DNA of 64,000 nucleotides. It comes from Melieria omissa (taxonomy: Eukaryota > Arthropoda > Insecta > Diptera > Ulidiidae). A model generated the notes under the pieces. That model worked only from the letters and a program-made list of their open reading frames with translations. It made no database searches and was not told the origin of the DNA. The position numbers and the translations under genes are program-made. Shown here one piece after another: positions 1 to 39,655 of this stretch (the first letter of the stretch is position 1; each line of letters begins with the position of its first letter). The stretch spans positions 273,501 to 337,500 of the forward strand of contig CAXARI010000002.1 in the NCBI GenBank assembly GCA_963971225.1, in the 5' to 3' direction.

Positions 1-520
1 CACCAACAAGGCTGCACCGATCTTGTTCAATCAAACACCGCGATTATGAACGTTATAAACTTTATTCCGCTCCGATCGAGCTCTAGACTAAGAGTGAGTA
101 CAATGTGTTGCTTAAGCCTACTCGTAACCTATGTCCGGCACCGCTCCCATGGTGACGGCGATTCGCTGAGGTAGGCGATCCCACGGTGGACGCGGCGCGT
201 GTGCTGTGTCAGCGCCTTGGCGTGCTGGTGTGGCGTAGCGAGGATCAGGTTGCAGCTCGAAGAGCGCTGACCATACACGCTGCCGAGGTCGCTGGTCACG
301 TTGCTGCGCGCGTGTGGTAAGCAGCGCGGGAAAGTGCTGGCGTTGCATATTGCCGAGGTCGCTGGTCACGTTGCTGCGCGCGTGTGGTAAGCAGCGCGGG
401 AAAGTGCTGGCGTTGCATATTGCCGAGGTCGCTGGTCACGTTGCTGCGCGCGTGTGGTAAGCAGCGCGGGAAAGTGCTGGCGTTGCATATTAGTTGGCCA
501 GTGGTGGCCCCGTGCTAACT
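1..520 (-). repeat. A1 3' LTR (partial)
   Basis: Its inner edge at 520 (CTAACT on plus, AGTTAG on minus) directly follows the polypurine tract. A polyadenylation signal AATAAA lies on the minus strand at 61-66. Compared with A1's own 5' LTR it has three rather than two copies of a 70-bp U3 repeat and about ten substitutions, so the two LTRs are not a fresh pair. Confidence 0.9.
281..490 (-). repeat. 70-bp tandem repeat in U3, three copies
   Basis: Three head-to-tail 70-bp units start at 281, 351 and 421, each beginning TGCCGAGGTC on the plus strand and ending GTTGCATAT. They lie close to the LTR start in the minus sense, that is in U3, where retroviral enhancer repeats sit. Most other A-family LTRs here have two units. 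Enhancer function is inference. Confidence 0.9.
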
Positions 521-1989: not shown

Positions 1990-2811
1990 CCTAGCTTAGG
2001 ATAGTTGATTAGGTGTAAAATTTGTTAAGACTTATCTGTTAATGTGTTAACTAGTTAGTTAAAAGATTTGTATTAGGTTACTTTTTTGTAGTTAGTGGGA
2101 ATTGGTATAAGGTATTTTAATATTACAAAATATAATATAGGATAATGATCTGGAGGTCCAGTAACGTATTTTAGGTAGTTATGCACCTATTTTCCTTTTT
2201 GTTTAATTAACATTATTTCTTTTCTTTTTTCTTTTTATTTTATTTTCATATATATTCTATGCGCATGGTACCATTCTGTCGTTCTCAAACGGGGAGTTGA
2301 GCCCCAATACCTGGGTTCTTCTTGCCAGGTATCTGCCATATTTGTTGGGACTTGGGTACTGCGACGGGTATGTGATAACATTATTTCTTTTTTCCTATTT
2401 GATTTTAACAGTATTCATGATACTTGAATAATTTTTTGTACATCTTAATTTTCTATTTTTACTAAAAAAACTTGTTCTCTTTTTTTTTGATTGTTTCTTG
2501 ACGGTACGTAAAAAGCATATCTCTTTCTTGTGTGTGAGTGTATATTTTGTGCGGTTTTACGTGCAGTTGTATTTTATTTTGTGTGCTGGTGCGAATATGT
2601 GCTGGTGTAAGTGCTTATGTGATTGAATTTATCGCATTTTATGTTATACTTATATTGTTACGTATATTCTAGTATATAAGATATTTATTGATTGATTTAC
2701 TGACGTACTTCAGCGTACAAGATTGCTGATTGTATTTTATGTGGTCTTTACTAATTTATAAAATTTCTTTTATATTTTAATTGCATATATTTTTTCATAT
2801 TTTATGTTATT
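1990..2811 (-). other. Non-coding interval between pol remnant and env in A1
   Basis: AT-rich sequence with no convincing ORF. The stretch next to env (minus: TTTTACACCTAATC, then CCTAAGCTAG) looks like a branch site and 3' splice acceptor for a subgenomic env mRNA. It matches the corresponding interval in A3/A4, apart from the LINE insertion there. Confidence 0.6.
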
Positions 2812-3337
2812 TTATTTTTTTGGAGTGCAACTCTTGATATGGGCCTTGTGAATTCTTCTTCCACTTTCCGTCGTTACTGTCACCCTATTGTCTTTAGATA
2901 CTATCTCTTTACGGTACAATGGTTTGTTTTTCCCTTTTATTTTTTTCCTAATTATCGGCATAGAGGCACTTCACTCAGATGACATTGGAAAGCTCGCGTT
3001 GTTCCCTTTTAGCCAAAAGCGTTAATAATTGCAAATGGCCTACTCATGGCACGAGTGATTTCACGTCAGTTGAAGACATAGTCCTCCTGGTGGAGTTGAA
3101 CCACTTCGATTGTTCGCCACTCGGACCACCGAGTTAACTGGAATTGAACCAATCTGGCTTGATCGACTACAAACGAATTTGTACCAGACCGCTGGGGCAC
3201 AAGGATCTATGCATAAGTTATGTGCTCTTTACCGATGTTGTTTCTTATTGGTCGTCAGACATTTCTTATGTCGGATTTGTGGAATTTTTTTCCTTTTTAT
3301 TGTCTTGATTGCTACGAAAATTTCCTTGCCCTTCCTA
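2812..3337 (-). pseudogene. pol: 3' remnant of pol in A1, interrupted by a SINE
   Basis: Two pieces, 2812-2941 and 3302-3337, match the C-terminal end of the pol frame of A3/A4, including its terminal codons. The rest of pol is absent. At 3335-3337 the pol sequence joins the foreign ORF. The SINE at 2942-3286 splits the remnant. Confidence 0.85.
2942..3286 (-). mobile_element. tRNA-dimer (Twin-like) SINE in A1
   Basis: A 345-bp insert is flanked by a 15-bp target duplication, TTTTTCCCTTTTATT at 2927-2941 and TTTTTCCTTTTTATT at 3287-3301 (one mismatch). On the minus strand two tRNA-like units follow each other. Each has a B-box (GGTTCAATTCC and GGTTCAACTCC), and the second has an A-box-like TGGTCCGAGTGG. 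The minus-strand 3' end is A-rich. The two-tRNA design recalls the Twin SINEs of Culex. The same copy is in A2. Confidence 0.75.
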
Positions 3338-4666
3338 ATTGCAACTGAATTCTAAACTTATTTTGTTGGTTTCGATATGGTATTTAATATAAACGGTGTC
3401 CCCTCCTGTTAATTGCAGCAGTTGCCAAAGGCGTTCCGCTGAACTCAATTTATTCTCGAAGTTCTTCTTCTCCACTCCCGTTGAGTAGAGTTGATGTAGC
3501 GCTTCGTAGCGTTCGATCTGCCTTTCTATGGCCCTCGTATTTAATTTTTTAACCGGGCGTTTGCCAAATGTCTTATCGGGGCCTTGAACAGGCAAACGAG
3601 ACCTCGAACCAGGTCGATGACAACGTGCCGTTTCACGTTCGGGATCGGAACGAAAACTTCTGTTATTGGCTTTTAGGGAACCGTCTACTATGGGTTTGCG
3701 AGTTGTATCACCAACCGGTGCATAGTTTCCACTAGGAGTTGGGTAAGATGACATTGCAAACGATGTTTCTGGATAGCACTGATTGAAATTGTACATTTTC
3801 GGAGTCGGCTGCTGATAACGTAACTCTGGGACAGGGTGATGTTGTCGGCTGAACTGTTGAGGATCATGAATTTTGTTACGAGAAGCAAAGCCTGAATGAC
3901 AGGGGTGGACAGTCTCATTCAAAGATTTCTGGGGAACAAGGTTATGCCTTGTTCCGACTAGCTGATCAACGTCTCTTGAATTTACTATATGTGTAAAAGT
4001 AGGGCCATATAGTTCAGAGGCATGACGAAATGAGAATATTTTTGAAAGAATTTCGTAACGATTGATATTAAAATCACGCTCCATGCATTCATACGGCAAA
4101 TCTCGGCCATGATGTTTCTCTATAGCCACAGCCAATTTTTTCAAAATTTGTAACATAACTCTCTGAGAATCCTCTTCAGGAATTTTTCCGATATATTGTC
4201 GGCATTGCCGTATGGCAGTCGGAAAGTGGTTTTCACAAAATTTCAGACGGTGATTGTAGCCCATCAAGTGATCTTGCATACCAGACCCATCCGACATAAG
4301 TTCGCATAACCCACACTCAAACCTCGCATTTAAGTCACCAGAGCCTTTAAGTATTTTGATTACATACTCAACGCCTATCAGTCCCAGTATTTTGTCATCA
4401 CTTCGCTTATAACTAAATGTTTTTGTTGCAAACGTTGGTTGGACTATTTTGCGCATCCGGGAATGGGAGGAGCGGTTTTTATTTTTGTCAACCGTCGGTA
4501 CACTTACAGTATTTGCTTGATAGCGCGATTTCTCTGTGGTATCTAATAACTCATATTTAGGTAGCATATCTCTGCAGGGGGTATGCTCTGTGCCGTGAAT
4601 TAGCATTAATTCTTCTGGGATCGCCCCATGGCTTTTTGACCTTTTATTTGAACTAAGTTTTTTCAT
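3335..4666 (-). CDS. Captured cellular-type ORF, C2H2 (U1/matrin-like) zinc-finger protein, in A1
   Basis: An intact 443-codon frame occupies the place of gag-pol. I chose the ATG at 4666 because the longer frame opens only with a GTG at 4687. The N-terminus is basic (KKLSSNKRSKS). A C-x2-C-x12-H-x5-H finger (CGLC ... HLMGYNH) follows at about residues 118-140, with a helical stretch after it, a Pro/Gln/Arg-rich middle and a charged helical C-terminus. It shows no capsid, protease, RT or integrase motif. The finger spacing and HLxGYNHR signature are like U1/matrin-type nucleic-acid-binding fingers of cellular proteins. The 118-bp segment upstream (4667-4784) contains no ATG and looks like a cellular 5' UTR. 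The stop TAG sits exactly on the join to pol sequence, so the C-terminus may be shorter than in the donor gene. Function unknown. Cellular origin is inferred. Confidence 0.8.
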   Translation of the reverse strand: MKKLSSNKRSKSHGAIPEELMLIHGTEHTPCRDMLPKYELLDTTEKSRYQANTVSVPTVDKNKNRSSHSRMRKIVQPTFATKTFSYKRSDDKILGLIGVEYVIKILKGSGDLNARFECGLCELMSDGSGMQDHLMGYNHRLKFCENHFPTAIRQCRQYIGKIPEEDSQRVMLQILKKLAVAIEKHHGRDLPYECMERDFNINRYEILSKIFSFRHASELYGPTFTHIVNSRDVDQLVGTRHNLVPQKSLNETVHPCHSGFASRNKIHDPQQFSRQHHPVPELRYQQPTPKMYNFNQCYPETSFAMSSYPTPSGNYAPVGDTTRKPIVDGSLKANNRSFRSDPERETARCHRPGSRSRLPVQGPDKTFGKRPVKKLNTRAIERQIERYEALHQLYSTGVEKKNFENKLSSAERLWQLLQLTGGDTVYIKYHIETNKISLEFSCN

Positions 4667-4784
4667 GGCTTTATTCCTGGTCTTCACTGCGCCGTTTCCT
4701 TTTTTTTTTTGTTATCTTAACTTCCCACCGTCACTGTTTCCCTTTCTTCTATTTTTAAGTTTTCACTGTCACTACACCAGGTCT

Positions 4785-4834
4785 CTGTTATCTAGCCTAT
4801 CTTGTTCGACCCTAGGTAGTCGTCCCTCTATACC
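4785..4834 (-). pseudogene. gag: Short gag remnant in A1
   Basis: About 50 bp match codons some 24-40 of the A3/A4 gag frame (residues GIEGRL and VEQDRLDN are recognisable). The gag start codon and the first roughly 20 codons have been deleted, and the foreign segment begins at 4784. Confidence 0.8.
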
Positions 4835-5545
4835 TGGTTCAATTGGTCAATTCTGGTCAATTCGGTCAGCTGGAAGAAAAATTCACTCACCTGTTATTTT
4901 CCTGTGACTCTAGTCCTTGTGTTGCCTCCGTATATATCCTTTTCCTAGCACTTGGCACTCACTTTGTACTTACTTTGCACGCACTGCACACTTTTCAATG
5001 ATTAGTATTTCTTTATTTTATTTTTTTCCTTCCTTGGTTTGACTGTATGCACACACTGCACACTTCAATGATTTCTCTTTTAGAAGAAAAAAAAACTTCT
5101 TTTTTTTTTTTTTTTTTTTTTTTTTAGCTTTTTTGCTTTTGCTGATTTTTCCGTGTAAAAAAAAATTTTGGTTATATGTTTTATCGTTTATTTGACGTTA
5201 GTTTAGTTATGGTCCTTTTACTCACCCTAAGATGAGCATTGAAGGCTTTAGTTAGTTATCCGGTCGTTGGCGAAATGAAATAAAAAATTTTTTTAAGACT
5301 GGAGGGTCCCGTGGGAATCGCAGCCTTAGTGTTCACCAACGCCTTTTTTGTTTATGTGCGGGCACCGCCTGGAAGGGTCGTGTTGTCCTGTTTAGTTGTC
5401 TGCGTTAACGGATTATTTGCGGACAACCTACTGAGGCACGACTGGCTTCACGTACCGGCTCACTATCGCTTAACGCTTGAGTCGTCCGGAGGATATACTC
5501 CGACTCCTCGGGGGAAGCTTGCGAAGAGTGAACTTGTGGTAAGGC
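4835..5545 (-). promoter_or_regulatory. 5' leader of A1 with splice donor
   Basis: Untranslated leader between primer site and gag remnant, matching the A3/A4 leader without the hAT insert. A strong 5' splice site (minus CAG|GTGAGT) lies with its exon end at 4891. In A3/A4 it sits just upstream of the gag ATG, so it is the likely env mRNA donor. The only ATG I find on the minus strand between LTR and captured ORF is at about 5238 and opens a five-codon uORF. A TTCCCACGGGACCCTC motif, shared with element B's leader repeats, lies near 5310. Confidence 0.65.
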
Positions 5546-5563
5546 GGTCCCTGCTCGGGCGCC

Positions 5564-5564
<1 letters not shown>
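5546..5564 (-). promoter_or_regulatory. tRNA-Lys-type primer binding site of A1
   Basis: Minus strand TGGCGCCCGAGCAGGGACC abuts the 5' LTR and shares its first base with the LTR end. It matches the usual lysine tRNA (UUU) 3' end with one mismatch. Elements A2, A3 and B have the same site. Confidence 0.88.
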
Positions 5565-7131
<1,567 letters not shown>

Positions 7132-8600
7132 GCCCCCCCTTCAAAAGTCTGCGTCCCGCTGACTATGGTTGCCAGAGGATGTTGCGTGGCAGCTTGGGCT
7201 CCCGCTGGTTCCTGGAGTGGCGGGATGCCCGTCTTCATCGTTAGTCTTCGCCAAAAGAGGTATGCCAAGCAAGCCATTACTGAAAAGATCAGAGAATCTG
7301 CAACGACAGAAAGGTTAGTCATATTCTTCAGGTGTCCCATGTACTTGAAGTTTTGTAAGTGGCCATCGTGCACATATTCTAAGGTTGGCTTTAGACCGCG
7401 ATTCGTTATGTTGTGGAGGACTGGCGGTAGTGCCAAGAGTCTTGTCACGGATCTGCTAGAATAAGTCTCGTTTCCCAACTCGATGGTTTCGTTGTTTAGC
7501 TGGATGACGAAGGTTCCCTCCAATAATTTGGTGTAATTTTCTGCCCTGATGGTTCCCCTGAAATTGGTGAGAAATAGTGTGTTGTCGTCTATCGTCTCGA
7601 TCACCTCCTTGTCGCTGGGTACGTAGTGGCATTCAGCGTCGCCTCCTTTAATCACTCGTGGCAGGCAGCTATCTTCGGGCAGCACTTCTATCTCCTCGGG
7701 GTAGCAGATCGTTGAATTGCTGATGTGTGTGCACGTTCCGGTGATGCCGAACGTTTCTCTTTGGTTAACCAGCATCTTGGTATAATTGAGAGCTAGTTGT
7801 TTGCCCTCTGAGATGGTGGCTCTTGTTGTTAGAAGATGATACCTTTCGTTCTTGGTTTTCGGCAGTGAGAGCACATACAGCAGCAGCGTACCGTTCGTGT
7901 AGACTGAAGGCTTCCCATACTCGATAGCTTCAATCGCGTTCTGGTACGGCAACGTCTCTATTTCCGATATAACTTGATTGATCTCTTCCTTGTCGAGGAG
8001 GTTAGTGTTCACGATCCCGTTCTTTGCCATTTGGCATGCCCTTACGACTTCATCTACCTGTTCTTTTAGTATAAGCACCTTACTCATAATGTTGCGTCCT
8101 GGCTCCATCGTTTCTACGTATTTTGAAACGTTGTTGACCTTCGTTATCATTTCGTTAACCTTGGCTATGACATCACTCGTGGCCTCCAAGATGCCGTTAT
8201 TGATTTTGTATTGCTGATTGTTGTTCTCCCAGATTTCTTTCTCTGAATTCAGCACCTGATTCCAATCGGTGGCATCGGGTGAACCAGCTATCCATTTCCA
8301 CGCAGCTCCCAGCCAGTCAATGGAGCGAGTCTTCCTCTTGCTGCTGCGAAGTTCGTCAAGGCGGTCATTAATTTGGTTTACGTAGTAGTCAAAAATAGCC
8401 TTGTCTTCTGTGCTCCTCAGCGCGTCTTGGGCCACCGCAGTAATCTTCTTTGCCGCTTCCTTAAGGGATCCTGTATTGATGACGTGCACCATTTTGAAAT
8501 GCCCACTGATGACCCATGCGTTCCCGTGTTGAATCGTCACCACAGGCGCCTTGTAGTTGAATATCCGGACGCCATTTGCTACCGTCAGGAGGTGTAGCAA

Positions 8601-9423
8601 CCTAGCTTAGGATAGTTGATTAGGTGTAAAATTTGTTAAGACTTATCTGTTAATGTGTTAACTAGTTAGTTAAAAGATTTGTATTAGGTTACTTTTTTGT
8701 AGTTAGTGGGAATTGGTATAAGGTATTTTAATATTACAAAATATAATATAGGATAATGATCTGGAGGTCCAGTAACGTATTTTAGGTAGTTATGCACCTA
8801 TTTTCCTTTTTGTTTAATTAACATTATTTCTTTTCTTTTTTCTTTTTATTTTATTTTCATATATATTCTATGCGCATGGTACCATTCTGTCGTTCTCAAA
8901 CGGGGAGTTGAGCCCCAATACCTGGGTTCTTCTTGCCAGGTATCTGCCATATTTGTTGGGACTTGGGTACTGCGACGGGTATGTGATAACATTATTTCTT
9001 TTTTCCTATTTGATTTTAACAGTATTCATGATACTTGAATAATTTTTTGTACATCTTAATTTTCTATTTTTACTAAAAAAAACTTGTTCTCTTTTTTTTT
9101 GATTGTTTCTTGACGGTACGTAAAAAGCATATCTCTTTCTTGTGTGTGAGTGTATATTTTGTGCGGTTTTACGTGCAGTTGTATTTTATTTTGTGTGCTG
9201 GTGCGAATATGTGCTGGTGTAAGTGCTTATGTGATTGAATTTATCGCATTTTATGTTATACTTATATTGTTACGTATATTCTAGTATATAAGATATTTAT
9301 TGATTGATTTACTGACGTACTTCAGCGTACAAGATTGCTGATTGTATTTTATGTGGTCTTTACTAATTTATAAAATTTCTTTTATATTTTAATTGCATAT
9401 ATTTTTTCATATTTTATGTTATT
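8601..9423 (-). other. Non-coding interval between pol remnant and env in A2
   Basis: AT-rich, the same as A1 1990-2811 except for one extra A in a run near 9072. It contains the putative env splice acceptor and nothing else I recognise. Confidence 0.6.
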
Positions 9424-9949
9424 TTATTTTTTTGGAGTGCAACTCTTGATATGGGCCTTGTGAATTCTTCTTCCACTTTCCGTCGTTACTGTCACCCTAT
9501 TGTCTTTAGATACTATCTCTTTACGGTACAATGGTTTGTTTTTCCCTTTTATTTTTTTCCTAATTATCGGCATAGAGGCACTTCACTCAGATGACATTGG
9601 AAAGCTCGCGTTGTTCCCTTTTAGCCAAAAGCGTTAATAATTGCAAATGGCCTACTCATGGCACGAGTGATTTCACGTCAGTTGAAGACATAGTCCTCCT
9701 GGTGGAGTTGAACCACTTCGATTGTTCGCCACTCGGACCACCGAGTTAACTGGAATTGAACCAATCTGGCTTGATCGACTACAAACGAATTTGTACCAGA
9801 CCGCTGGGGCACAAGGATCTATGCATAAGTTATGTGCTCTTTACCGATGTTGTTTCTTATTGGTCGTCAGACATTTCTTATGTCGGATTTGTGGAATTTT
9901 TTTCCTTTTTATTGTCTTGATTGCTACGAAAATTTCCTTGCCCTTCCTA
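9424..9949 (-). pseudogene. pol: pol 3' remnant in A2 with SINE
   Basis: Same two-piece remnant of the pol C-terminus as in A1, split by the SINE at 9554-9898. Confidence 0.85.
9554..9898 (-). mobile_element. tRNA-dimer SINE in A2
   Basis: Same SINE at the same site and with the same target duplication as in A1. It predates the A1/A2 duplication. Confidence 0.75.
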
Positions 9950-11278
9950 ATTGCAACTGAATTCTAAACTTATTTTGTTGGTTTCGATATGGTATTTAAT
10001 ATAAACGGTGTCCCCTCCTGTTAATTGCAGCAGTTGCCAAAGGCGTTCCGCTGAACTCAATTTATTCTCGAAGTTCTTCTTCTCCACTCCCGTTGAGTAG
10101 AGTTGATGTAGCGCTTCGTAGCGTTCGATCTGCCTTTCTATGGCCCTCGTATTTAATTTTTTAACCGGGCGTTTGCCAAATGTCTTATCGGGGCCTTGAA
10201 CAGGCAAACGAGACCTCGAACCAGGTCGATGACAACGTGCCGTTTCACGTTCGGGATCGGAACGAAAACTTCTGTTATTGGCTTTTAGGGAACCGTCTAC
10301 TATGGGTTTGCGAGTTGTATCACCAACCGGTGCATAGTTTCCACTAGGAGTTGGGTAAGATGACATTGCAAACGATGTTTCTGGATAGCACTGATTGAAA
10401 TTGTACATTTTCGGAGTCGGCTGCTGATAACGTAACTCTGGGACAGGGTGATGTTGTCGGCTGAACTGTTGAGGATCATGAATTTTGTTACGAGAAGCAA
10501 AGCCTGAATGACAGGGGTGGACAGTCTCATTCAAAGATTTCTGGGGAACAAGGTTATGCCTTGTTCCGACTAGCTGATCAACGTCTCTTGAATTTACTAT
10601 ATGTGTAAAAGTAGGGCCATATAGTTCAGAGGCATGACGAAATGAGAATATTTTTGAAAGAATTTCGTAACGATTGATATTAAAATCACGCTCCATGCAT
10701 TCATACGGCAAATCTCGGCCATGATGTTTCTCTATAGCCACAGCCAATTTTTTCAAAATTTGTAACATAACTCTCTGAGAATCCTCTTCAGGAATTTTTC
10801 CGATATATTGTCGGCATTGCCGTATGGCAGTCGGAAAGTGGTTTTCACAAAATTTCAGACGGTGATTGTAGCCCATCAAGTGATCTTGCATACCAGACCC
10901 ATCCGACATAAGTTCGCATAACCCACACTCAAACCTCGCATTTAAGTCACCAGAGCCTTTAAGTATTTTGATTACATACTCAACGCCTATCAGTCCCAGT
11001 ATTTTGTCATCACTTCGCTTATAACTAAATGTTTTTGTTGCAAACGTTGGTTGGACTATTTTGCGCATCCGGGAATGGGAGGAGCGGTTTTTATTTTTGT
11101 CAACCGTCGGTACACTTACAGTATTTGCTTGATAGCGCGATTTCTCTGTGGTATCTAATAACTCATATTTAGGTAGCATATCTCTGCAGGGGGTATGCTC
11201 TGTGCCGTGAATTAGCATTAATTCTTCTGGGATCGCCCCATGGCTTTTTGACCTTTTATTTGAACTAAGTTTTTTCAT
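9947..11278 (-). CDS. Captured cellular-type zinc-finger ORF, A2 copy
   Basis: The 443-codon frame (ATG at 11278) translates to the same protein as in A1, with the C2H2 finger CGLC ... HLMGYNH. It lies between a gag remnant (11397-11446) and the pol remnant. The preceding leader has the same short uORF and splice donor as A1. No other product is evident between the two LTRs besides Env. Biochemical role unknown. Confidence 0.8.
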   Translation of the reverse strand: MKKLSSNKRSKSHGAIPEELMLIHGTEHTPCRDMLPKYELLDTTEKSRYQANTVSVPTVDKNKNRSSHSRMRKIVQPTFATKTFSYKRSDDKILGLIGVEYVIKILKGSGDLNARFECGLCELMSDGSGMQDHLMGYNHRLKFCENHFPTAIRQCRQYIGKIPEEDSQRVMLQILKKLAVAIEKHHGRDLPYECMERDFNINRYEILSKIFSFRHASELYGPTFTHIVNSRDVDQLVGTRHNLVPQKSLNETVHPCHSGFASRNKIHDPQQFSRQHHPVPELRYQQPTPKMYNFNQCYPETSFAMSSYPTPSGNYAPVGDTTRKPIVDGSLKANNRSFRSDPERETARCHRPGSRSRLPVQGPDKTFGKRPVKKLNTRAIERQIERYEALHQLYSTGVEKKNFENKLSSAERLWQLLQLTGGDTVYIKYHIETNKISLEFSCN

Positions 11279-11396
11279 GGCTTTATTCCTGGTCTTCACT
11301 GCGCCGTTTCCTTTTTTTTTTTGTTATCTTAACTTCCCACCGTCACTGTTTCCCTTTCTTCTATTTTTAAGTTTTCACTGTCACTACACCAGGTCT

Positions 11397-12157
11397 CTGT
11401 TATCTAGCCTATCTTGTTCGACCCTAGGTAGTCGTCCCTCTATACCTGGTTCAATTGGTCAATTCTGGTCAATTCGGTCAGCTGGAAGAAAAATTCACTC
11501 ACCTGTTATTTTCCTGTGACTCTAGTCCTTGTGTTGCCTCCGTATATATCCTTTTCCTAGCACTTGGCACTCACTTTGTACTTACTTTGCACGCACTGCA
11601 CACTTTTCAATGATTAGTATTTCTTTATTTTATTTTTTTCCTTCCTTGGTTTGACTGTATGCACACACTGCACACTTCAATGATTTCTCTTTTAGAAGAA
11701 AAAAAAACTTCTTTTTTTTTTTTTTTTTTTTTTTTTTAGCTTTTTTGCTTTTGCTGATTTTTCCGTGTAAAAAAAAATTTTGGTTATATGTTTTATCGTT
11801 TATTTGACGTTAGTTTAGTTATGGTCCTTTTACTCACCCTAAGATGAGCATTGAAGGCTTTAGTTAGTTATCCGGTCGTTGGCGAAATGAAATAAAAAAT
11901 TTTTTTAAGACTGGAGGGTCCCGTGGGAATCGCAGCCTTAGTGTTCACCAACGCCTTTTTTGTTTATGTGCGGGCACCGCCTGGAAGGGTCGTGTTGTCC
12001 TGTTTAGTTGTCTGCGTTAACGGATTATTTGCGGACAACCTACTGAGGCACGACTGGCTTCACGTACCGGCTCACTATCGCTTAACGCTTGAGTCGTCCG
12101 GAGGATATACTCCGACTCCTCGGGGGAAGCTTGCGAAGAGTGAACTTGTGGTAAGGC
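11397..12157 (-). promoter_or_regulatory. A2 gag remnant and 5' leader
   Basis: Same as the A1 segment: about 50 bp of gag without a start codon at 11397-11446, then untranslated leader with CAG|GTGAGT donor (exon end 11503) and a poly(T) run near 11713-11737. Confidence 0.65.
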
Positions 12158-12175
12158 GGTCCCTGCTCGGGCGCC

Positions 12176-12176
<1 letters not shown>
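12158..12176 (-). promoter_or_regulatory. tRNA-Lys-type primer binding site of A2
   Basis: Minus strand TGGCGCCCGAGCAGGGACC next to the 5' LTR, as in A1. Confidence 0.88.
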
Positions 12177-13844
<1,668 letters not shown>

Positions 13845-13845
<1 letters not shown>

Positions 13846-13863: not shown

Positions 13864-13867
13864 TGAC

Positions 13868-15041: not shown

Positions 15042-15070
15042 CCTGTGAACCCTAGTAATTCTTTAGTAAT

Positions 15071-22060: not shown

Positions 22061-24330
<2,270 letters not shown>

Positions 24331-25286
24331 GCCCCCCTTCAAAAGTCTGCGTCCAGCTGACTATGGTTGCCAGAGGATGTTGCGTGGCAGCTTGGGCTCC
24401 CGCTGGTTCCTGGAGTGGCGGGATGCCCGTCTTCATCGTTAGTCTTCGCCAAAAGAGGTATGCCAAGCAAGCCATTACTGCAAAGATCAGAGAATCTGCA
24501 ACGACAGAAAAGTTAGTCATATTCTTCAGGTGCCCTATGTACTTGAAGTTTTGTAAGTGGCCATCGTGCACATATTCTAAGGTTGGCTTTAGACCGCGAT
24601 TCGTTATGTTGTGGAGGACTGGCGGTAGTGCCAAGAGTCTTGTCACGGATCTGCTAGAATAAGTCTCGTTTCCCAACCCGATGGTTTCGTTGTTTAGCTG
24701 GATGACGAAGGTTCCCTCCAATAATTTGGTATAATTTTCTGCCCTGATGGTTCCCCTGAAATTGGTGAGAAATAGTGTGTTGTCGTCTATCGTCTCGATC
24801 ACCTCCTTGTCGCTGGGTACGTAGTGGCATTCAGCGTCGCCTCCTTTAATCACTCGTGGCAGGCAGCTATCTTCGGGCAGCACTTCTATCTCCTCGGGGT
24901 AGCAGATCGTTGAATTGCTGATTGTTGTTCTCCCACATTTCTTTCTCTGAATTCAGCACCTGATTCCAATCGGTGGCGTCGGGTGAACCAGCTATCCATT
25001 TCCACGCAGCTCCCAGCCAGTCAATGGAGCGAGTCTTCCTCTTGCTGCTGCGAAGTTCGTCAAGGCGGTCATTAATTTGGTTTACGTAGTAGTCAAAAAT
25101 AGCCTTGTCTTCTGTGCTCCTCAGCGCGTCTTGGGCCACCGCAGTAATCTTCTTTGCCGCTTCCTTAAGGGATCCTGTATTGATGACGTGCACCATTTTG
25201 AAATGCCCACTGATGACCCATGCGTTCCCGTGTTGAATCTTCACCACAGGCGCCTTGTAGTTGAATATCCGGAAGCCATTTGCCAC

Positions 25287-25663
25287 CGTCAGGAGGTGTA
25301 GTAACCTAGCTTAGGATAGTTGTTTAGGTGTAAAATTTGTTAAGACTTATCTGTTAATGTGTTAACTAGTTAGTTAAAAAATTTGTATTAGTTTCCTTAA
25401 CAAGTGGTTACCTTTTTGTAGTTAGTGGGAATTGGTATAAGGTATTTTAATATTACAAAATATAATATAGGATAATGATCTGGAGGTCCAGTAACGTATT
25501 CTAGGTAGTTATGCACCTATTTTCCTTTTTGTTCAATTAACATTATTTCTTTTCTTTTTTCTTTTTATTTTATTTTTATATATATTCTATGCGCATGGTA
25601 CCATTCTGTCGTTCCCAAACGGGGAGTTGAGCCCCAATACCTGGGTTCTTCTTGCCAGGTATC
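25287..25663 (-). other. Pol-env interval of A3, env side
   Basis: AT-rich non-coding sequence matching A1 1990-2330, with a 21-bp difference near 25390-25412. It ends at the LINE insertion. Confidence 0.6.
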
Positions 25664-25754
25664 TTTTTTTTTTTTTTTTTAAACAGGAACAAACGCGCAG
25701 GGGATGACCCCTATTAATGCGAAGCATTGCGTTGGTTCAGGAAGGATATAAAGG

Positions 25755-28646
25755 TTAGGAGATAGGGTTATGAGTGAAGTGGTTATGGACTCTTGCCTTG
25801 AACCCATCGAGATCATAAGTGCTGGGGAAAATATCCGCAGGGAGACCATTCCACAACCGCGCTGTACGGGCCAGAAACGAACTTTCCCTGTAGTGCGTAG
25901 TGCGCTGGAACATCGTTTCGACGTGGAAAGCATGGGCGCCAGTGTTCAAACGGGTTGCCCGGGGGAATACCCGGAGTGATGGCATCAAGTTGCTCATCTC
26001 CACTGAGCAGTTACCGAAAAAGTATCGGTAAAATAACACCACACATGCCACGTTTCGACGATGTTCCAAGGAGTCAATAGAGCTGGATGCCCTACTGTCC
26101 CCTATAAGTTTAATCGCACGGTTTTGCACCCGATCGAGGAGCTCCAAATGGGTTTTTGAAGCCCCCGCCCAGAGGTGCGAGTTAAACTCCATTTTAGGTC
26201 GGATATAGGTGGTGTAAATAATGCGGAGATCAGACGGAGTGAAATATTTTTTGCACCGCTTTAGGAAGCCTAGGCACTTGGCTGCTTCTTTCGACACGCC
26301 AAAAATATGATCGTTCCAACGAAGATCGTTCTTAATGGACATGCCCAGAACATCAAGAGCTGCCGATTCCGCAATACCCACACCACCCATAACCAGGGAT
26401 GTTTTGGAATGTGGGGAGACTCGTTTGTGGGATAACAGGCAACATTGGGTCTTGCGGGGATTAAAATCGACCCTGTTCACTTGACCCCACTTGGAGATTG
26501 TTTGTAGGTCGCTATTAAGTGTGTCATTCATACGGCGCCGTTCTCTCTCAATCTCCACAGAGCTGGGACGCTTTGTGAAAGAGTATGAATGACAAATGGT
26601 GCTGTCATCCGCAAACGAGTAGATGGGATTCTTCGTCGACGACAGCAGGTCGTTAATGAAGATCAGGAAGAGGGTTGGAGAAAGGACCGAACCCTGCGGC
26701 ACTCCCGCGCTAAGGGAATGCTTTTCCGAGGCTATGCCGTCTACTACAACACGAATAGAGCGATCATAGAGGAAGCTCGTAATCCAACGAGAGAAGGTAC
26801 TACCGACACCATAGGCAATCAATTTTGACACGAGTGCTTTATGCCACACCCGGTCAAAGGCCTTGGAAATATCCAATGCAACAACCTTGCTTTCACCGAG
26901 ATTTAGAATGCTATGGTTCCATTTCTCGGTGAGGACCGCCATAAGGTCTCCCGTCGATCGTTGTCTTCGGAAGCCGTATTGGCGGTCACTTAGCAGTCTA
27001 TTGTGCTCCAGATATTTCACAAGGTTGAAGTTTACAATGCTTTCCATTACTTTGGAAAGCACCGAACAGATTGCTATAGGTCGGTAGTTCGCAGGATCAG
27101 TAGTCTTGCCTTTTTTAGGAACTGGTTGAACATTTGCTACCTTCCAACATGTCGGAAATACCCCTGTGGTGTATGACATGTTGAAAAGTTTGCGTAATGG
27201 ACAAGCCAGTGAGGTAGCGCACTTTTGCAAAACAAGGGCTGGAATGCCGTCCGGCCCTGAAGCCTTATTTACATCGAGATTTGCAAGCACTCTTTTAACT
27301 ACCCGCGTTCGAAAATGAATTTCTGGCATAGAGCAAGATACGTTCTCGACTACGGGTAGTGGTTGATCGCTGGGGGGCAGGGAGGAATTCTCTGCGAAAA
27401 TTTTAGCCAACAAATTAGCTTTATCAACCGAGTGAGTGATGATTTGATCATTGTTAAGAAGAGTTGGAATTGAAGATGATGTTTGGTTCTTCACCTTCTT
27501 AACGAATGACCAAAAGTTCTTACTACCACGTTGGCATTGAAGAACTTTTTTCCTTTGGCGCTGTTCGTGCAGAAACTTTTGGCACCTTAGGATGGCATTG
27601 CATCGATTTCTAGCCTGTTTACGCAGCTGTTCAGTGGTGGCATTTTTATTTGCCTGCCATGCTCTGAAAGCTTCCTCTTTAGACCTGACAGCAATTCTGC
27701 ATGTCTCATTAAACCATAGATTGTCCTTAGGTTTAATGCAAATTAACTTATTGGGGATGAAGGACCGCATTCCCAATAATATTATTTCTTCAACCATTTT
27801 GGCTGCGGCATTTATGTTTCTATCAAGAAAACACAATTTCCAGTTGAAGTGGACGAAAAATTCATTAAGTCCACTCCAGTTAGCTTTATCATACATCCAC
27901 ACTAGGTGCTTCGGGGCTAGGGGCGAAGCATTGCGGATAGAAGAGTATGAGAAAGACGCCAAAATGGTGCAATGGTCTGAGTTTCCAAGAGGTGCGTGCA
28001 TTTCAACATCATATTTTTCATGCTGTGAAGTGAGAAAAAGGTCTAGAGTATTGAGAGCTTGCCCCGCAACGCAGGGGATATGCGTTGGTTCTTTCACTAA
28101 TTGAGTCAAGTTATTAGACTCGGCAAAGAGCTCGACAAATAAGCCTTCAGGAGTTGTGTGGCTGGAATGGCGTAGCCAATTGGAATTATGAATATTGAAA
28201 TCACCAGCAACTACAATTTCACTATTCGGATACGATTCCAGAATATGAGATATGGAATCAGAGAGAAGATCAAACTTGTTATAAGTAAAATCTCTCCCTG
28301 AATTCGGGCTTCTATAAAGGAAGCAAAAGTGCAGAATGTGCGACTGGATATTGAATTTAACCCACATGGAGCTAAATTCGGCATCCGTCGTGTAAAGTTG
28401 CTACTGGCACTGGTACGCAACATTACTGCACACATAAAGGGCAAGACCCCTGTGGGGAGAGAATAATGGCAGTAAGTGGTACCCCGGGATGTGAAAATCC
28501 AGTGGATCTGCATCTTCACACACCTGGGTCTCGCCTAGTGCCATTATGTGGGGTTTATGGAGGTTAACGTACGCGTAAACTGCGAAAAAGTTCGCCCTAA
28601 GCCCGCGCACGTTACAAAAGGCTATGCGGAATTTATCCACCACCAT
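25755..28646 (-). pseudogene. LINE endonuclease-reverse transcriptase ORF, one nonsense codon (A3)
   Basis: A 963-codon frame from the ATG at 28646 is interrupted only by a TAG at 28401-28403. The A4 copy has a sense codon (CAG) there. An apurinic-type endonuclease domain comes first (FCNVRGLRANF, VVAGDFNIHNSNW, GNSDHCTI). The RT follows (NKASGPDGIP, PANYRPIAICSVLSKV, YGFRRQRST, VPQGSVLSP, SFADDST). A C-terminal region typical of CR1-like elements (LLDRVQNRAIKLIGDS, FLARTARLWNGLP) ends the frame. It would make target-primed cDNA at nicked DNA. With the stop, this copy is probably dead. Confidence 0.9.
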
Positions 28647-29112
28647 GGTCTGGATGGGCTAAAGATCAAGGAAAGTAGCTGGGAATGAGATCTGCCGACC
28701 TAAGAAATTGATGATGCTCTGTGGTAAGTGTTATGCCTTTACCACAGAACAGTCAATTTCTCAATGTCGAACAGGACCGCATGTAGCGCTACTGAGAACG
28801 GACAGAGGAGGGAAACACGGAAAAACGAACCACAAACAACACATCGCGAGCAGGGGTCATTGCGGCGGACGGCGACATCGAGTAACGGCCCTTGACGGCT
28901 TTCCAATGGCCACGCTTTTAATTTTTAGATTGATTTGACAACAATCCACGCAAATTTATTAAGTTGACACACGCGGGGCTGCATACACCGAGTTAAAAGA
29001 CAAACACACAAGCGGACGAACATTAAAACACGCGCGAGACGGACAGAAACATTAAAAGACCACGAGCACAAAAAGGCACTTCTGCCCACGCGTAACTGTG
29101 TTGTTTAACTCC
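28647..29112 (-). other. LINE 5' region (A3)
   Basis: 466 bp upstream of the endonuclease ATG. No ORF1 or promoter could be recognised. Confidence 0.5.
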
Positions 29113-29592
29113 CTGCCATATTTGTTGGGACTTGGGTACTGCGACGGGTGTGTGATAACATTGTTTCTTTTTTTTCCTATTTGATTTTAACAGTATTCAT
29201 GATACTTGAATAATTTTTTGTACATCTTAATTTTCTATCTTTACTAAAAAAACTTGTTCTCTTTTTTTTTGATTGTTTCTTGACGGTATGTAAAAAGCAT
29301 ATCTCTTTCTTGTGTGTGAGTGTATATTTTGTGCGGTTTTACGTGCAGTTGTATTTTACTTTGTGTGCTGGTGCAAATATGTGCTGGTGCAAGTGCTTAT
29401 GTGATTGAATTTATCGCATTTCATGCTATACTTATATTGTTACGTATATTCTAGTATATAAGATATTTATTGATTGATTTATTGACGTACTCCAGCATAC
29501 AAGATTGCTGATTGTATTTTATGTGGTCTTTACTAATTTATAAAATTTCTTTTATATTTTAATTGCATATATTTTTCATATTTTATGTTATT
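29113..29592 (-). other. Pol-env interval of A3, pol side
   Basis: Non-coding AT-rich sequence, matching A1 2333-2811. Confidence 0.6.
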
Positions 29593-32371
29593 TTATTTTT
29601 TTGGAGTGCAACTCTTGATATGGGCCTTGTGAATTCTTCTTCCACTTTCCGTCGTTACTGTCACCCTATTGTCTTTAGATACTATCTCTTTACGGTACAA
29701 TGGTTTGTTTTTCCCTTTTATTGTCTTGATTGCTACGAAAATTTCCTCGCCCTTCCTATATGTTCTTGGTTTTGACCTTCTTGCATTTCTGCGTGTGTTC
29801 TGCAGTCGGAGGTTTTTTCGAATAAGCCCCCTTAAATCATTGTTTACCTTTGCTTGGAAGTCGACTAGATTTTGGTAGTTTATCTTCTGAACTCTATTAA
29901 AAAATATATCGCTGGGTCTTTTCTTGGTTACAGAATGTATTGTATTGTTATATCTGTCAGTAGCGACGTTCACTAGTTCCTTAACCTTAAGGTCAGGATA
30001 CTCCCTTCTAAGGCATCGGTAAATTTCCAAGATGGTAGAGTGAAGTCGTTCCACTTGCCCATTTACTTCGCTCCTTTGTGAAGGGGTGAAGTAAAGTCGA
30101 ATCCTCAGAGCTTTTATAAGGTTCTGGATTATGGGACTAATCAGACTCCTTTCATTATCTGCAACCAGAATTTTGGGTACTGTGAAGTAATGTAAAATTT
30201 TTATAAGCTTTGACCTAACATGTAGTACGGATCTATCTTTGAGGTGAAACAATTTGGCAAATTTCGAAAATTTATCTATGCAACTCACGAACTTTTCCCC
30301 TTGAATTTCCATGATATACATGTGAAGGATTTCACACGCGTACTTTGGGACGGGGGTTTCTTGGAATTCCGGGTGTGTGGGATGTCTGTCATATTTGTTA
30401 ATGTTACACACGTCACAGGTGGAGGCATACTTTTTCACAAGACTGTTCATCCTTGGAAAATAGAAGGTTTCTAATATTTGCTCTTTATTTTCTCGCGCAT
30501 TTCGGTGAGCCCTATTATGCTCCGTTCTTATAATGTAGAATTTGCGCTCTTCATTTGTCACGTCCTCTACAATTCTTTGCGTGATACGAATTTTGTACTT
30601 AGAAAAGTTGTTGACATATATTTCTTGGAGTAGGTGAATGTGTTCCTCGGGAATTTTCACTCCATTAATTACATTTGGATTTAATCTCTCTTTAAGAAGC
30701 TGTACAAGTTTCCCTTTGTTGAAATATGGTATGGTCAGATAATGGCGAGTGTATCCCGGGTGCGGGCTTTCACAGGAGAGGAGTTCTTTACCTATTCTGA
30801 TGATTATTTGGCATCGAAATGCGTTAATAGGACATTCCACATGCGGAATCAAGTCTGAGCTGTCTTGATCCGCGCTGTGCATCGTGGCACCCTCACTTGC
30901 AGTATCTGTTATCGAATCCTTACCCTCACTTGCTGTATCCGTTATCGAATCATTACCCTCACTTGCTGTTTGCGTGTCACTTTGACCTTCGATGGCTGTC
31001 TCTGTTTCTGAAGTATATTCTCGACCTTCGCTAGCTGTATCCGTATCGCTTGGTTCAGCTCCTGTGGATGCTGTCAAGTGGTTCACATTTGTTTTTAGCC
31101 TGGAAAGGGCGTCCGCTACTGAGTTTGATTTACCCGGCTTGTAAATTGACTCGTAGTTATATTCTTCTATCCTAGCTTTCCATCTTTTCAACTTCGCGTT
31201 ATAGTTGCTATTGCTAAGGGCAAATGTGAGGGGTTGGTGGTCGGTATAAATTCTAATTTTCTTTGCGCCGTACAGGTATGAGCGAAGGTTGTCGAGAGCC
31301 CATACTATAGCGAGCATCTCTTTCTCATTTGTCGCGTAGTTTTCTTCTGTCTTGTTCAAAGAGCGCGAGATGTACGCTATTGGCTTATCCTTTCGGGGTT
31401 CTCCCTGGGACAGCACGGCACCAATTGCGTAGTTTGAGGCGTCAGTTGTCAGATTAAATGATTTTTCGAAGTCTGGGAAAGCGAGTATTTCTGAAGAGGT
31501 TAAGAGTTCTCTTAAATTGTTGAACGCTTGCAAAGCCGTTGAATCTAAACTAATAGAAACTTTTCTCGATTGGTTAGCCTTTACTTGAGAATTTTCACCA
31601 CGGGTGAGATTTGTGAGTGGTTTTGCTACCTTGGCATAATCTCGAATAAACTTGCGGTAGTACGACGTCATCCCTAGGAATCGTTTCAATTCTTTTAAGT
31701 TGCTTGGTGGCAACATTTGTTGGATTGCTGCAACTTTACCTGGGTCGGCCTTGATACCATCAGTCGTAATAATGTATCCTAAAAATTCGACCTCTTCCCT
31801 CATAAGGTGTGTTTTTTCCAAGTTTACCCTCAGGTTAGCTTCCAACAATGTTGCAAAGACGGTCTCTACGTTTTGTAGATGCTCGTCCACAGTTTTTCCA
31901 AAGACGATTATATCATCGATGTACACGTAGCAAATTTTCCCGATATGCTTCTTCAGTACATCGTCAATCATTCTTTGGAAAATTGCGGGCGCATTCTTAA
32001 GACCGAATGGTAGGCGCAAGAATTCGTACTTGCCGTTCATCGTGGAGAACGCAGTTTTAGGGATGTCGGATTCTTTCATCAATATTTGATGAAAGCCTGA
32101 TGTTAGATCGAGGGTGGTGAAATACTTTGCTGCTCCCAGGCTTACCAGAGTTGAGTTAATATCAGGGATGGGGTACGTGTCAGCTATGGTTACCGGCTTT
32201 TCCCCTGAAGGCTTAGGCTTTTTCGGAACTACCCATATCGGAGAATTGTATGGGCTTTTTGAAGGTCGAATAATGCCTTCAGTTAGGAGTTCATGAACCT
32301 GTTTTTCTACTTCCGATCTCATGCACGCCGGGTATGGATAACTTTTAGTGTAAATGGGCTCGTCTGTACTA

Positions 32372-32503
32372 CACCTTTTTAAGTTCGATTTCAGAAAGCG
32401 TAAATTCAATTTCAGAAAGCGTAAATTCAATTTCAGAAAGCGTAAATTCAATTTCAGAAAGCGTAAATTCAATTTCGGAAAACGTAAATTCAATTTCAGA
32501 AAC
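32372..32503 (+). repeat. Left terminal repeat and 21-bp subterminal array
   Basis: The terminal CACC end followed by about six 21-bp units containing AGAAAGCGTAAATTCAATTT. Each is the reverse complement of the right-side units, so the two arrays are inverted. They are likely transposase binding sites (inference). Confidence 0.85.
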
Positions 32504-32671
32504 TACCTTTAATGTATAAAAAATGTTTTTGGAAAAGTGCACTTTGCCAAATTTTTTATCTACGTACGGAACAAAGTGTGCCATTTCTACATATTTGTAA
32601 TTGTAAAATAAAACAAAATAGTTCATTTCATTTCAACTGTACAACTGTTGTGTGCGTATAACTGAAATCCA

Positions 32672-33946
32672 ATGGAGTACAAAGACAATTGTGCAATATG
32701 CCTCTTGGATATGCGAACGCGTCGCGTGTGCAAAATTCTAAATTGTGGGCACTTATTTCACATGGAGTGCATTGAGCCGCTGTTAGCAAATGCAAATCGA
32801 ACTTGCCCAATTTGCCGTTGTGAAATTACTGGTAAGTATTCGTTTTTTGCTAAATATCCTGTAAGTATTCAAAATTTTTTTCTCTTTGCAGGCAATGAAG
32901 AATGCGTAAGAAAGCAGTACAAAGCGAATTCGGCCCAAGATAGGGACCGAGTCGTGTCGGTAGCAGCCCGGGGCGAAGATTGGGTAGCGATGGCGACTTC
33001 TCTGGGTATTTGCTACAAGACGGCACATAGCTGGGTTTCGTCAGGGCGCGCCGAAATGCTTCGTAAGGGTGGTGGAAAAAGCCGGAAGCTTGGAGCGGAC
33101 CAGGTGGCAGAGATAATAACTTGGTTGGAAGAGGATTGCTCTATGACCCTTACAGCGATGAAGTCACGAATCCTAACACGCTTTAACGTTGACGTCACCA
33201 CAACAACGATAGGAAACTACCTAAATGGTGAATTGTATTCACTGAAAAAAGTCCACACGGAGCCGGTGACAATGAATAGCTGCGCAAACAAACTAAAGCG
33301 AGCTGGCTACGTCACACAACTCAATCAGTTGATACAAGCCGGGAAGCAGATCGTTTGGATAGACGAAACAAATTTTAATTTATTTTGCCGTTTTACACGA
33401 GGCCGTTCCAAAGTTGGTCAACGCGCTATCCAACAACTTCCCGCGTCTAGGGGCCCAAACGTACATTTGATTGGTGCAATCACCACAGGAGGTGTGCTGC
33501 TTTTAGAGCGTCGCAGGGGCTCATTTACATCTGCAGCTTGCTCCGAATGGGTACAAGGTTTAATTACCAAATGGCAGGAAAATGGCAATAACGTTAACGA
33601 CCTTGTGATTGTGTGCGACAATGCACCATGCCATACCACGATCGAAACAGCCGTAGCAGCACACTCAGGTGGTCTTGCAGAAGTGCTACGTTTGGGTCCA
33701 TATTCGCCGATGCTAAATCCGATCGAAAATATTTGGTCGAAAGTAAAGGCGTACGTAAAGTCGCATATGACTGTACCACAAGTGCAATCACCGGCCATTA
33801 TGGAGCAGCGGCTCCAGTATTTAGAAAAAATAGTGGACGAGGCAAAGTGCACTATAACTGGAGGCGACTGCGCAAGAGCAATCCAGCACAGTTCGACGTT
33901 TCATGGGGATGCTCTTGCGCAGAAGGACATGCTTGTGGGAACATAA
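32672..33946 (+). CDS. IS630/Tc1/mariner-superfamily transposase with N-terminal RING-H2 finger
   Basis: 424 codons from an ATG. Residues 7-48 form a RING-H2 finger: C7-x2-C10, C25-x-H27-x2-H30-x2-C33, C45-x2-C48. A helix-turn-helix DNA-binding region follows (about 85-190: WVAMATSLGICYKTAHSWV, TTIGNYLNG), then the DDE core with D231 (VWIDETNF), D316 (VCDNAPCH) and E352 (LNPIENIW). By my count 35 residues separate D316 and E352. Bases 32832-32891 fit a 60-nt intron (GTAAGT ... TTTGCAG), which is in phase. Spliced and unspliced RNAs would give about 404 and 424 residues. The core cuts and joins DNA at TA. The RING may be a ubiquitin-ligase or protein-binding module, which is unusual for this superfamily. 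The gene looks intact. Confidence 0.9.
   Translation: MEYKDNCAICLLDMRTRRVCKILNCGHLFHMECIEPLLANANRTCPICRCEITGKYSFFAKYPVSIQNFFLFAGNEECVRKQYKANSAQDRDRVVSVAARGEDWVAMATSLGICYKTAHSWVSSGRAEMLRKGGGKSRKLGADQVAEIITWLEEDCSMTLTAMKSRILTRFNVDVTTTTIGNYLNGELYSLKKVHTEPVTMNSCANKLKRAGYVTQLNQLIQAGKQIVWIDETNFNLFCRFTRGRSKVGQRAIQQLPASRGPNVHLIGAITTGGVLLLERRRGSFTSAACSEWVQGLITKWQENGNNVNDLVIVCDNAPCHTTIETAVAAHSGGLAEVLRLGPYSPMLNPIENIWSKVKAYVKSHMTVPQVQSPAIMEQRLQYLEKIVDEAKCTITGGDCARAIQHSSTFHGDALAQKDMLVGT
32832..32891 (+). other. Putative 60-nt intron in the RING-transposase gene
   Basis: Starts GTAAGTATT and ends CTCTTTGCAG, with a T-rich tract before the AG. The length is a multiple of three and it has no stop codon, so retention also leaves the frame open. 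It falls between the RING and the HTH region. A second GTAAGTATT lies inside it at 32871. Confidence 0.65.
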
Positions 33947-34096
33947 ACATTTATTTTTCTTGGCCAGCAGATATTTAGATATAGATAGATATAGATAGAT
34001 ATAGATAGATATAGATATTTCTTTTATAACGTATTATAAAAAATGTTACTTTTTCAAATCTGTGTAAATGCAACCAAAATAAATTCAACATTTGCT

Positions 34097-34432
34097 CTGA
34101 AATTGAATTTACGTTTTCTGAAATTGAATTTACGTTTTCCGAAATTGAATTTACGCTTTCTGAAATTGAATTTACGCTTTCTGAAATTGAATTTACGCTT
34201 TCTGAAATTGAATTTACGCTTTCTGAAATTGAATTTATGTTTCTGAAATTGAATTTACGTTTTCCGAAATTGAATTTACGCTTTCTGAAATTGAATTTAC
34301 GCTTTCTGAAATTGAATTTACGCTTTCTGAAATTGAATTTTTGTTTCTGAAATTGAATTTACGCTTTCTGAAATTGAATTTACGCTTTCTGAAATTGCTT
34401 TTACGCTTTCTGAAATCGAACTTGAAAAGGTG
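34097..34432 (-). repeat. Right terminal repeat and 21-bp subterminal array
   Basis: About 16 units of GAAATTGAATTTACGCTTTC type, with a higher-order pattern: units with TTTTCC recur before runs of the CTTTCT type, suggesting internal block duplication. The array ends in the 16-bp terminal inverted repeat. Confidence 0.85.
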
Positions 34433-34972
34433 TAGTTTTTATCTCTGCCTTGACAGACGTTTCTACACTAACCCCTGCACTGAGTGGCTCAAATAGTTCC
34501 GAATATTTTTCCAAAAGTGATTCCAAAGATCTTACCTCCCCGTTTCTCACATTAGGCGTCTGCAACAGGTGCAAGCCTTTCGTAACCCTATTCCTCAGAT
34601 TCAGTGTAATTCCAGGCTGCAACGTTATTTTGTGGTTTTTTCGGTCTATCACCGCCCCTAGTTGCTTAAGCGTGTCGTCTCCGATTATTCCATCGAAAGA
34701 TTTGAGCCCCGGAAGCACATAGAATGTAATTGGGGTCTCAATTCCTACACACTTGAAAAATTTCCCGGTAGTCTTTCTGTTGATGGAAATCGGGCCAGCA
34801 ACTGTTTGGACAGGGAAAGGAGAATTTACAGGCGAGGATTGTTTAGCCAACTTTGGGCTGACGAAGTTCTTATTGGCCCCCGTATCTATCAGAAAATCCA
34901 AAGTTTCCCCGTTCTTGCACGATTTCGAGATGTAGGGTACACTCGAAATTCGTTCCCCCCGAGTTTGTCCGT

Positions 34973-36265
34973 CTAAATGAAAAACGCAGGGGGATGATCC
35001 CCTAAAAAATCCTGATCATCATCTAGGGTTCCAGTATTAGTGTCCTCCTGTGCGTGTTGACTTAGATTTTCCTCTTCGGCTAACGCCTCGAGGTTAAACA
35101 GCCGCTGCTGTTTTTGTGGGAAGTTTGCAGAGGCCGCGCGCCTCTTAAACGGATTCATATTATTGGTGTCGGGTCGATTCATATAATTTACCCGCTTGGA
35201 CTGGATCGACCTGTCCACATCCATTTTCTCTTGTGGCTTAGGGCCCGTCGGTCTGGGAGGTGGAGTAGACTCCATGCTTCCATTTCCCGTGTATCTATTA
35301 TTTTCAAAGATTGGAGGCATGTTGCGGTAGTTTAATTTTCCCCCATAATCACTGGGAAACTTATATTGTCTTCGGGGCAGTGGCGGTACCTGATCCGAAA
35401 TTTCTGTTCAGAGGAACCGTGACCCTGTTTGTGCTTGCGGTATGAATAATGTTGTTTCGTATTGTTAAATTCTGCATATCCAAGCATGCAGAGTACGCTT
35501 CCGGCAAGGTCTTCGGTTTCTGTACTATAAGCATGCGTGACAAGTCGCTGTTCAACCGCCTTATGAAAACGTCCAGAGCTCGGTTCCGGTATGTCTCTAT
35601 TAGTGCGTTCATTGTCTCTTCGGAGTATGTCTCGCTTTTTATTTTATTAATAATCAATGAAAATTGATGGTTTACGGTCGCATAGAACTCGTCCAGCCTA
35701 CCTCCTCTTTGCGAGAGTTGGTTTAGCTGGTGTTCCAACGTCCGTATGTCCCTTTTGTCGGCGTAATGAAGAGACAATACCCGTTTTATTTCCTGTCAGT
35801 CCGCGCGAACACGTTGTACGACACCAGCGCTGTGTCGGCACTACCCCTCACTTTTTGGCGGATATGTTGGAGGATTGCCCGGTAGATGGGCTTTCCCCGT
35901 ACGATTTCATAGTCCTTTAGAATATTTTCCACGCTGTGCACCCACGACACATAGCATACAGGGTTTCCGTCAAAAGTTTGAAGTTCCTTCACACAGTCAG
36001 GGAGTCGAGCGATCTCTTTGAGTTCCTGTTCATTTTGAGGTCCGCATAAGGTGGTCAGCTCCGCGCCAGGTTGCGGTTGTGATTCTCCTCGCTCAATCTG
36101 GAGAAGTCTCCCCTCAATTCCTTGAAGCGTTGCTCCTAATAAGCCCCTGTTATCTAGCCTATCTTGTTCGACCCTGGATAGTCGTCCCTCTATACCCCTT
36201 AGCTGTTCTAACATCCTGTTGACCGCTCCGGTCAATTCGGTCAAAGAGGTTCTCATCTCGTCCAT
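34973..36265 (-). pseudogene. gag: gag of A3, frameshifted
   Basis: Homologous to element B gag throughout: leucine-rich N-terminus (MDEMRTSLTELTGAV), FDGNPVCYVSWVHSVEN, LSLHYADKRDIRTLEHQL and a Pro/Arg-rich tail. The frame is broken near 35780 and again between 35361 and 35320. The two shifts return to the original frame, and both are shared with A4. The full capsid protein cannot be made. Confidence 0.9.
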
Positions 36266-36339
36266 CGTCGGTCAGTTGGAAGAAAAATTCACTCACCTGT
36301 TATTTTCCTGTGACCCTAGTCCTTGTGTTGCCTCCATAT

Positions 36340-37655: not shown

Positions 37656-37663
37656 CTCCATAT

Positions 37664-38242
37664 ATATCCTTTTACTAGCACTTGGCACTCACTTTGCACG
37701 TTCTGCACACTTTTCAATGATTAGTATTTTTTTATTTTTATTTTTTTCTTTCCTTGGTTTGGCTGTATGCGCACACTGCACACTTCAATGAATTCTCTTT
37801 AGAAACAATTTTTTTAACTTTTTGCGTTTGCTAATTTTTTGTTAAAAAAAAAATTTTGTTATATGTTTTGTCGTTTATTCGAATTTTAATTCGATGTAAG
37901 TTTACTTGTTGTCCTTTTACTCACCCTAAGATGAGCATTGAAGGCTTTAGTTAGTTATCCGGTCGTTGGCGAAATGAAATAAAATTTTTTTAAGACTGGA
38001 GGGTCCCGTGGGAATCGCAGCCTTAGTGTTCACCAACGCCTTTTTTGTTTATGTGCGGGCACCGCCTGGAAGGGTCGTGTTGTCCTGTTTAGTTGTCTGC
38101 GTTAACGGATTATTTGCGGACAACCTACTGAGGCACGACTGGCTTCACGTACCGGCTCACTATCGCTTAACGCTTGAGTCGTCCGGAGGATATACTCCGA
38201 CTCCTCGGGGGAAGCTTGCGAAAAGTGAACTTGTGGTAAGGC
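37664..38242 (-). other. A3 leader, LTR-proximal part
   Basis: Non-coding, matches A1 4930-5545. The long plus-strand frame crossing into the LTR is not supported as a gene. Confidence 0.6.
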
Positions 38243-38260
38243 GGTCCCTGCTCGGGCGCC

Positions 38261-38261
<1 letters not shown>
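38243..38261 (-). promoter_or_regulatory. tRNA-Lys-type primer binding site of A3
   Basis: Same sequence as in A1, A2 and B, next to the 5' LTR. Confidence 0.88.

Positions 38262-39655
<1,394 letters not shown>

Follow-up and report, generated by a model that had tools for sequence, protein, structure and literature searches.

A captured piece of the host gene CG7065 stands in place of gag and pol in a group of errantivirus-derived elements of the fly Melieria omissa, and these elements work like a transducing retrovirus. Two copies, A1 and A2, lie in the window, the 64,000-nucleotide stretch analysed here (contig C16:273501-337500, from a genome of 490 Mb in 164 contigs). The host piece forms most of an open reading frame (ORF) named Z, and has moved among several distinct virus families, apparently with the aid of helpers. 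Z elements are defective derivatives, neither autonomous errantiviruses nor members of the Retroviridae: they have long terminal repeats (LTRs) of the form AGT...ACT with a primer-binding site (PBS) and a polypurine tract (PPT), and their env is of the Gypsy type. In all 23 Z loci fetched and read, the elements' own gag and pol survive as end fragments only. The parts of A1 and A2 are as follows.

5564..6063, minus strand: A1 5' LTR, 500 bp, AGTTAGCACG...AACCATAACT
1..520, minus strand: A1 3' LTR, truncated at the edge of the window; a 70-bp unit occurs three times here and twice in the 5' LTR
5546..5563, minus strand: A1 PBS, GGCGCCCGAGCAGGGACC
12158-12175, minus strand: A2 PBS
521-538 (A1) and 7132-7149 (A2), minus strand: PPT
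4884-4895 (A1) and 11496-11507 (A2), minus strand: donor-like splice site in the leader, AACAG/GTGAGTG, predicted from the motif only
4785..4834, minus strand: A1 gag-start remnant, GIEGRLPRVEQDRLDNR, about 50 bp, without the gag start codon
3335-4666 (A1) and 9947-11278 (A2), minus strand: ORF Z, 443 aa
4541..4666, minus strand: A1 Z residues 1-42 (head)
3581..4540, minus strand: A1 Z residues 43-362, the CG7065-derived piece
3335..3580, minus strand: A1 Z, last 81 residues, a viral small ORF (ORF0)
3295..3336, minus strand: A1 pol 3' end, first piece, about 42 bp, adjoining the Z stop
2942..3285, minus strand: A1 block of about 344 bp interrupting the pol end
2790..2941, minus strand: A1 pol 3' end, second piece, and neighbouring sequence
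490-1881 (A1) and 7101-8492 (A2), minus strand: env ORF, 463 aa (Pfam Gypsy PF07253, E 2e-49)
6563..12675, minus strand: stretch holding the PBS, Z, env and PPT of A2

The first-pass annotation of this DNA had described an intact Z in A1 and A2 with LTRs, PBS, PPT, donor-like site and env retained, and all of these were located in the two elements, their Z frames lying between LTRs with 0 differences. It had also placed Z between the last 50 bp or so left of gag and the end of pol. Both flanks stand, but the pol end is not continuous, being broken by the block of about 344 bp. In translation, the start of this block reads as the probable pol end of another errantivirus, which is longer in the class-4 element L026. 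In L018, pol residues 856-909 run uninterrupted behind Z, and L018 therefore lacks the block. Of 17 other Z elements read, 16 have the same 18 PBS bases immediately after the 5' LTR; the exception is L023, whose row is shifted owing to the LTR boundary used. A1 and A2 form a single 6.6-kb tandem duplication, 99.97% identical with the (TTA)n spacer included, and were for this reason rejected as independent insertions. On C16, A-type env occurs seven times between 234 and 282 kb, which points to a longer array containing both.

The host orthologue of CG7065 (L009) lies at C1:46825000-46834999 and has an open frame of 1304 codons, or 1295 aa from the first ATG. Its relatives (53 proteins at E <= 0.01, among 4120 candidates) comprise proteins named CG7065 by their sources, from tephritids and Drosophila, together with uncharacterised ones from Lucilia and Musca. 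Residues 43-362 of Z match L009 at 88.3% over 960 nt, gap-free, which at the level of sequence establishes a cellular origin for 320 of the 443 residues. This inner piece includes the central C2H2 domain and ends before the conserved C-terminal region; that region and the N-terminal finger of CG7065 are both missing from Z. The zinc ligands C118, C121, H133 and H139 are invariant in 42 aligned sequences, and the C2H2 domain is modelled with fair confidence.

The last 81 residues of Z are instead viral, and comparison within the genome identifies them as ORF0. This is a diverse small ORF that several errantiviruses of the same genome carry immediately upstream of gag (L034 3728-3937; L035 3231-3431; L036, reverse complement, 3451-3702), and no homologue of it was found in the protein database. 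The cargo is thus fused to viral frames, to ORF0 in classes 1-3 and, in classes 5 and 6, to the start of gag. The cellular origin proposed earlier for the whole of Z holds for the CG7065-derived piece and not for this tail, for which alone the contrary idea of a standard errantivirus gene is true.

A six-frame genome search with Z gave 95 scored matches among 187 candidates, 94 viral and one the host gene. These numbers are minimum values, and many rows represent near-identical members of arrays. In 53 matches Z runs from residue 1 or 2 to 443. The others comprise one damaged copy (50-443, three stops), nine of residues 1-312, one of 1-237, three of 85-312, each with a stop, and 27 of 41-252 or 41-260. 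Of 68 matches to the 42-aa head, 66 coincide with or adjoin Z rows. The elements fall into six classes, with the Z core as the sole common part. Classes 1, 2 and 3 have both the head and the ORF0 tail in common, while classes 5 and 6 have the core joined in frame to the gag start. L027 and L029 are head-to-tail arrays of approximately 3.9-4.0-kb units with the gag start in frame with the core. The cassette is present in several LTR families, and the env proteins of the recipient families are about half identical. Among A-type relatives, gag is weakly Ty3-like (seen in the homologue of a neighbouring element, C) and pol is 70% identical to that of element C. L033 is a mosaic with the Z tail, a gag start reading into pol, and an env frame behind; we take this element to be 17.6/gypsy-like.

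Many copies moved recently. LTR pairs at 15 loci comprise nine that are identical (L013 over 401 bp), four at 99.8%, one at 98.3% and one at 95.6%; the other eight of the 23 loci have no clean pair. Four-base target duplications, T-N-N-A, flank 10 of 17 Z elements, and of the other seven, five lie inside TTA/TAA repeats, one has a truncated LTR and one is unclear. L010 and L012, on different contigs, have the same env-internal deletion and identical LTR pairs. The common deletion should predate both insertions, so that an intact env in cis would also be dispensable. Five A-family loci have frames for gag (434 aa), pol (1131) and env (501) one behind the other, as found with the first 159 aa of gag as query, and are possible helpers. 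Because gag and pol are gone, the moves are recent and such loci are present, we strongly infer that Z elements are mobilised in trans. Helper viruses would carry Z elements that have no replication genes, and template switching would move the cassette between errantivirus backbones, a step that, like the order of events, we infer. At two places (gag at C16:345455 with env at 348592; gag at C20:7892 with env at 11037), a class-2-type env also lies only approximately 3.1 kb from a gag that resembles that of the A type at 73%. This gap is too short for pol and suggests perhaps a second, pol-less class with gag plus env.

The architecture of an acutely transducing retrovirus, which the first-pass annotation had suggested, is supported by host coding sequence standing in place of viral genes. 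That account would have failed had there been neither a copy elsewhere nor a cellular homologue; both exist, the homologue as L009 and the copies, which have target duplications and identical LTRs, at sites spread over several chromosomes. Mobilisation in trans, suggested at the same time, is made more probable by the points above.

Leaders differ among classes. Eleven of class 1 or class 4 (L010-L018, L030, A1) have one upstream ATG, of 5 codons, and that of L011 has an additional in-frame upstream start of Z. Four class-2 leaders have 5-6 upstream ATGs, none opening more than 10 codons. Three class-3 leaders have 23-24 ATGs, the in-frame start of Z itself included, and the class-6 leader of L028 has 9, with the gag-Z frame beginning at the last of them. 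Both A1 and A2 have an open env, yet the leader search found no other ATG to start it.

The full reading, to which we give a probability of about 0.35, is that the captured gene (v-CG7065) defines a satellite retrovirus lineage that is tied to no single virus family and moves among four or five errantivirus backbones at the least, replacing gag-pol in every copy read, and that its protein actively aids the satellites, either by blunting CG7065-dependent host control or by favouring satellite RNA over that of the helper. A function of the protein would be consistent with the retention of its frame. Somewhat less probable is that Z is a passenger and not a working protein. Against a passenger, 52 of the 53 full-length matches are open (many being near-identical copies), the zinc ligands are retained in 20 of 21 copies, and the sole inner length change among nine aligned copies is 21 nt, in frame. 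All six classes also have the core, and no other part, in common; in classes 5 and 6 it is fused in frame to gag. The probability of no stop under neutrality is 0.065 between L018 (class 1) and L024 (class 3), and 0.19-0.50 for the other six Z pairs.

That different errantiviruses captured this host gene several times independently is disfavoured and improbable. Class 5, which has neither the head nor the ORF0 tail and has a gag fusion instead, would fit it. The head and tail common to classes 1, 2 and 3 argue for a single source, as do synonymous distances (dS) of at most 0.135 between compared Z classes, against at least 0.185 to the host gene. An assembly artefact or purely local tandem rearrangement is suggested by the tandem A1 and A2 and by the microsatellite-rich contig, but is contradicted by copies on C1, C2, C3 and C4 as well as C16, those on C1, C2 and C4 having different flanks and target duplications (the C3 copy, L023, is unclear). 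The high similarity of the viral and host pieces would also suit the reverse direction, a host gene that acquired its middle part from a virus, which is very unlikely given that the domain lies inside long orthologues of Drosophila, tephritids, Lucilia and Musca and that L009 matches none of the LTRs tried.

The window holds further retroelements besides A1 and A2.

23831..38760, minus strand: element B, an A-type relative with gag and pol
about 13487-22419, plus strand: element C, a relative of another family, with open ORFs for gag (425 aa), pol (953 aa) and env (506 aa)
41420-46671, minus strand: another retroelement, its open ORFs labelled by eye as gag-like (514 aa) and pol (1130 aa)

Element B is broken by nested insertions and an env deletion, and served as the yardstick for the Z joins. 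It is carried, with an insertion that appears LINE-like by eye, in a large segmental duplication (23017-32371 against 51856-61207, and 34433-37226 against 61206-64000; 99.8-99.9% identical). An insertion that by eye is Tc1-like (32672-33946) is present only in the first copy. Long (TTA)n-like arrays lie between elements at 6064-6562, 12676-13486, 22420-23830, 38761-39655 and about 47410-52669, the last containing extra A-type LTR copies (49385-49884, 51356-51855). A-type elements directly adjoin these arrays, and element C seemingly does too; several Z elements outside the window are likewise inside TTA/TAA repeats.

Host-gene transduction is a hallmark of vertebrate retroviruses. As in the acutely transducing v-onc retroviruses, the host piece in Z elements is truncated at both ends, replaces replication genes, is fused to viral frames (here ORF0 or gag) and apparently needs a helper. 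In contrast, Z elements are Ty3/Gypsy-type insect elements read in a genome assembly, one C2H2-gene cassette occurs in several virus families, and the env ORF is often kept.

Crocodilian endogenous retroviruses (ERVs) captured KIT-ligand, with no ERV domain lost, and nectin3, with env lost (PMC4299795). They are similarly ERV lineages with captured host mRNA, and nectin3 cost a viral gene, whereas Z elements lost gag-pol and distinct LTR families have the cargo in common. Host gene pieces also occur in maize Bs1 and other LTR elements, but as transduced ORFs in one or few copies according to a review (PMC7264820), against 94 scored viral matches of Z in several families. The ORF3s of bdelloid LTR elements are likewise extra ORFs traded among retroelement types; they are added to gag and pol, and exchange was judged likelier than host capture (PMC5408684), while for Z the host source was found in the genome that carries it, and gag-pol is gone. 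The sORF1 and sORF2 of MDG1-group elements lie upstream of gag (PMC11952523), and ORF0 resembles them in size and position, but differs from sORF2, a membrane-fusing accessory protein marked by a transmembrane helix and a polybasic stretch, in having no obvious membrane segment by eye. Rover variants of Drosophila are reported to undergo strand switching between co-packaged errantivirus RNAs within one lineage, and the Env tree of that study argues against env exchange between lineages (PMC12992720); the Z cassette, unlike rover, crosses families with env about half identical. No insect retrovirus with a transduced host gene was found in the literature searched, in which subscription journals were mostly outside the scope.

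In one insect genome the donor gene and the joins can thus be read together with several recipient families, recent copies and gag-pol-env loci of the A family. The Z cassette shows exchange between distant errantivirus lineages, and the little-studied CG7065 becomes a possible player in virus-host conflict. The picking up and passing on of host genes by insect retroviruses becomes a testable question.
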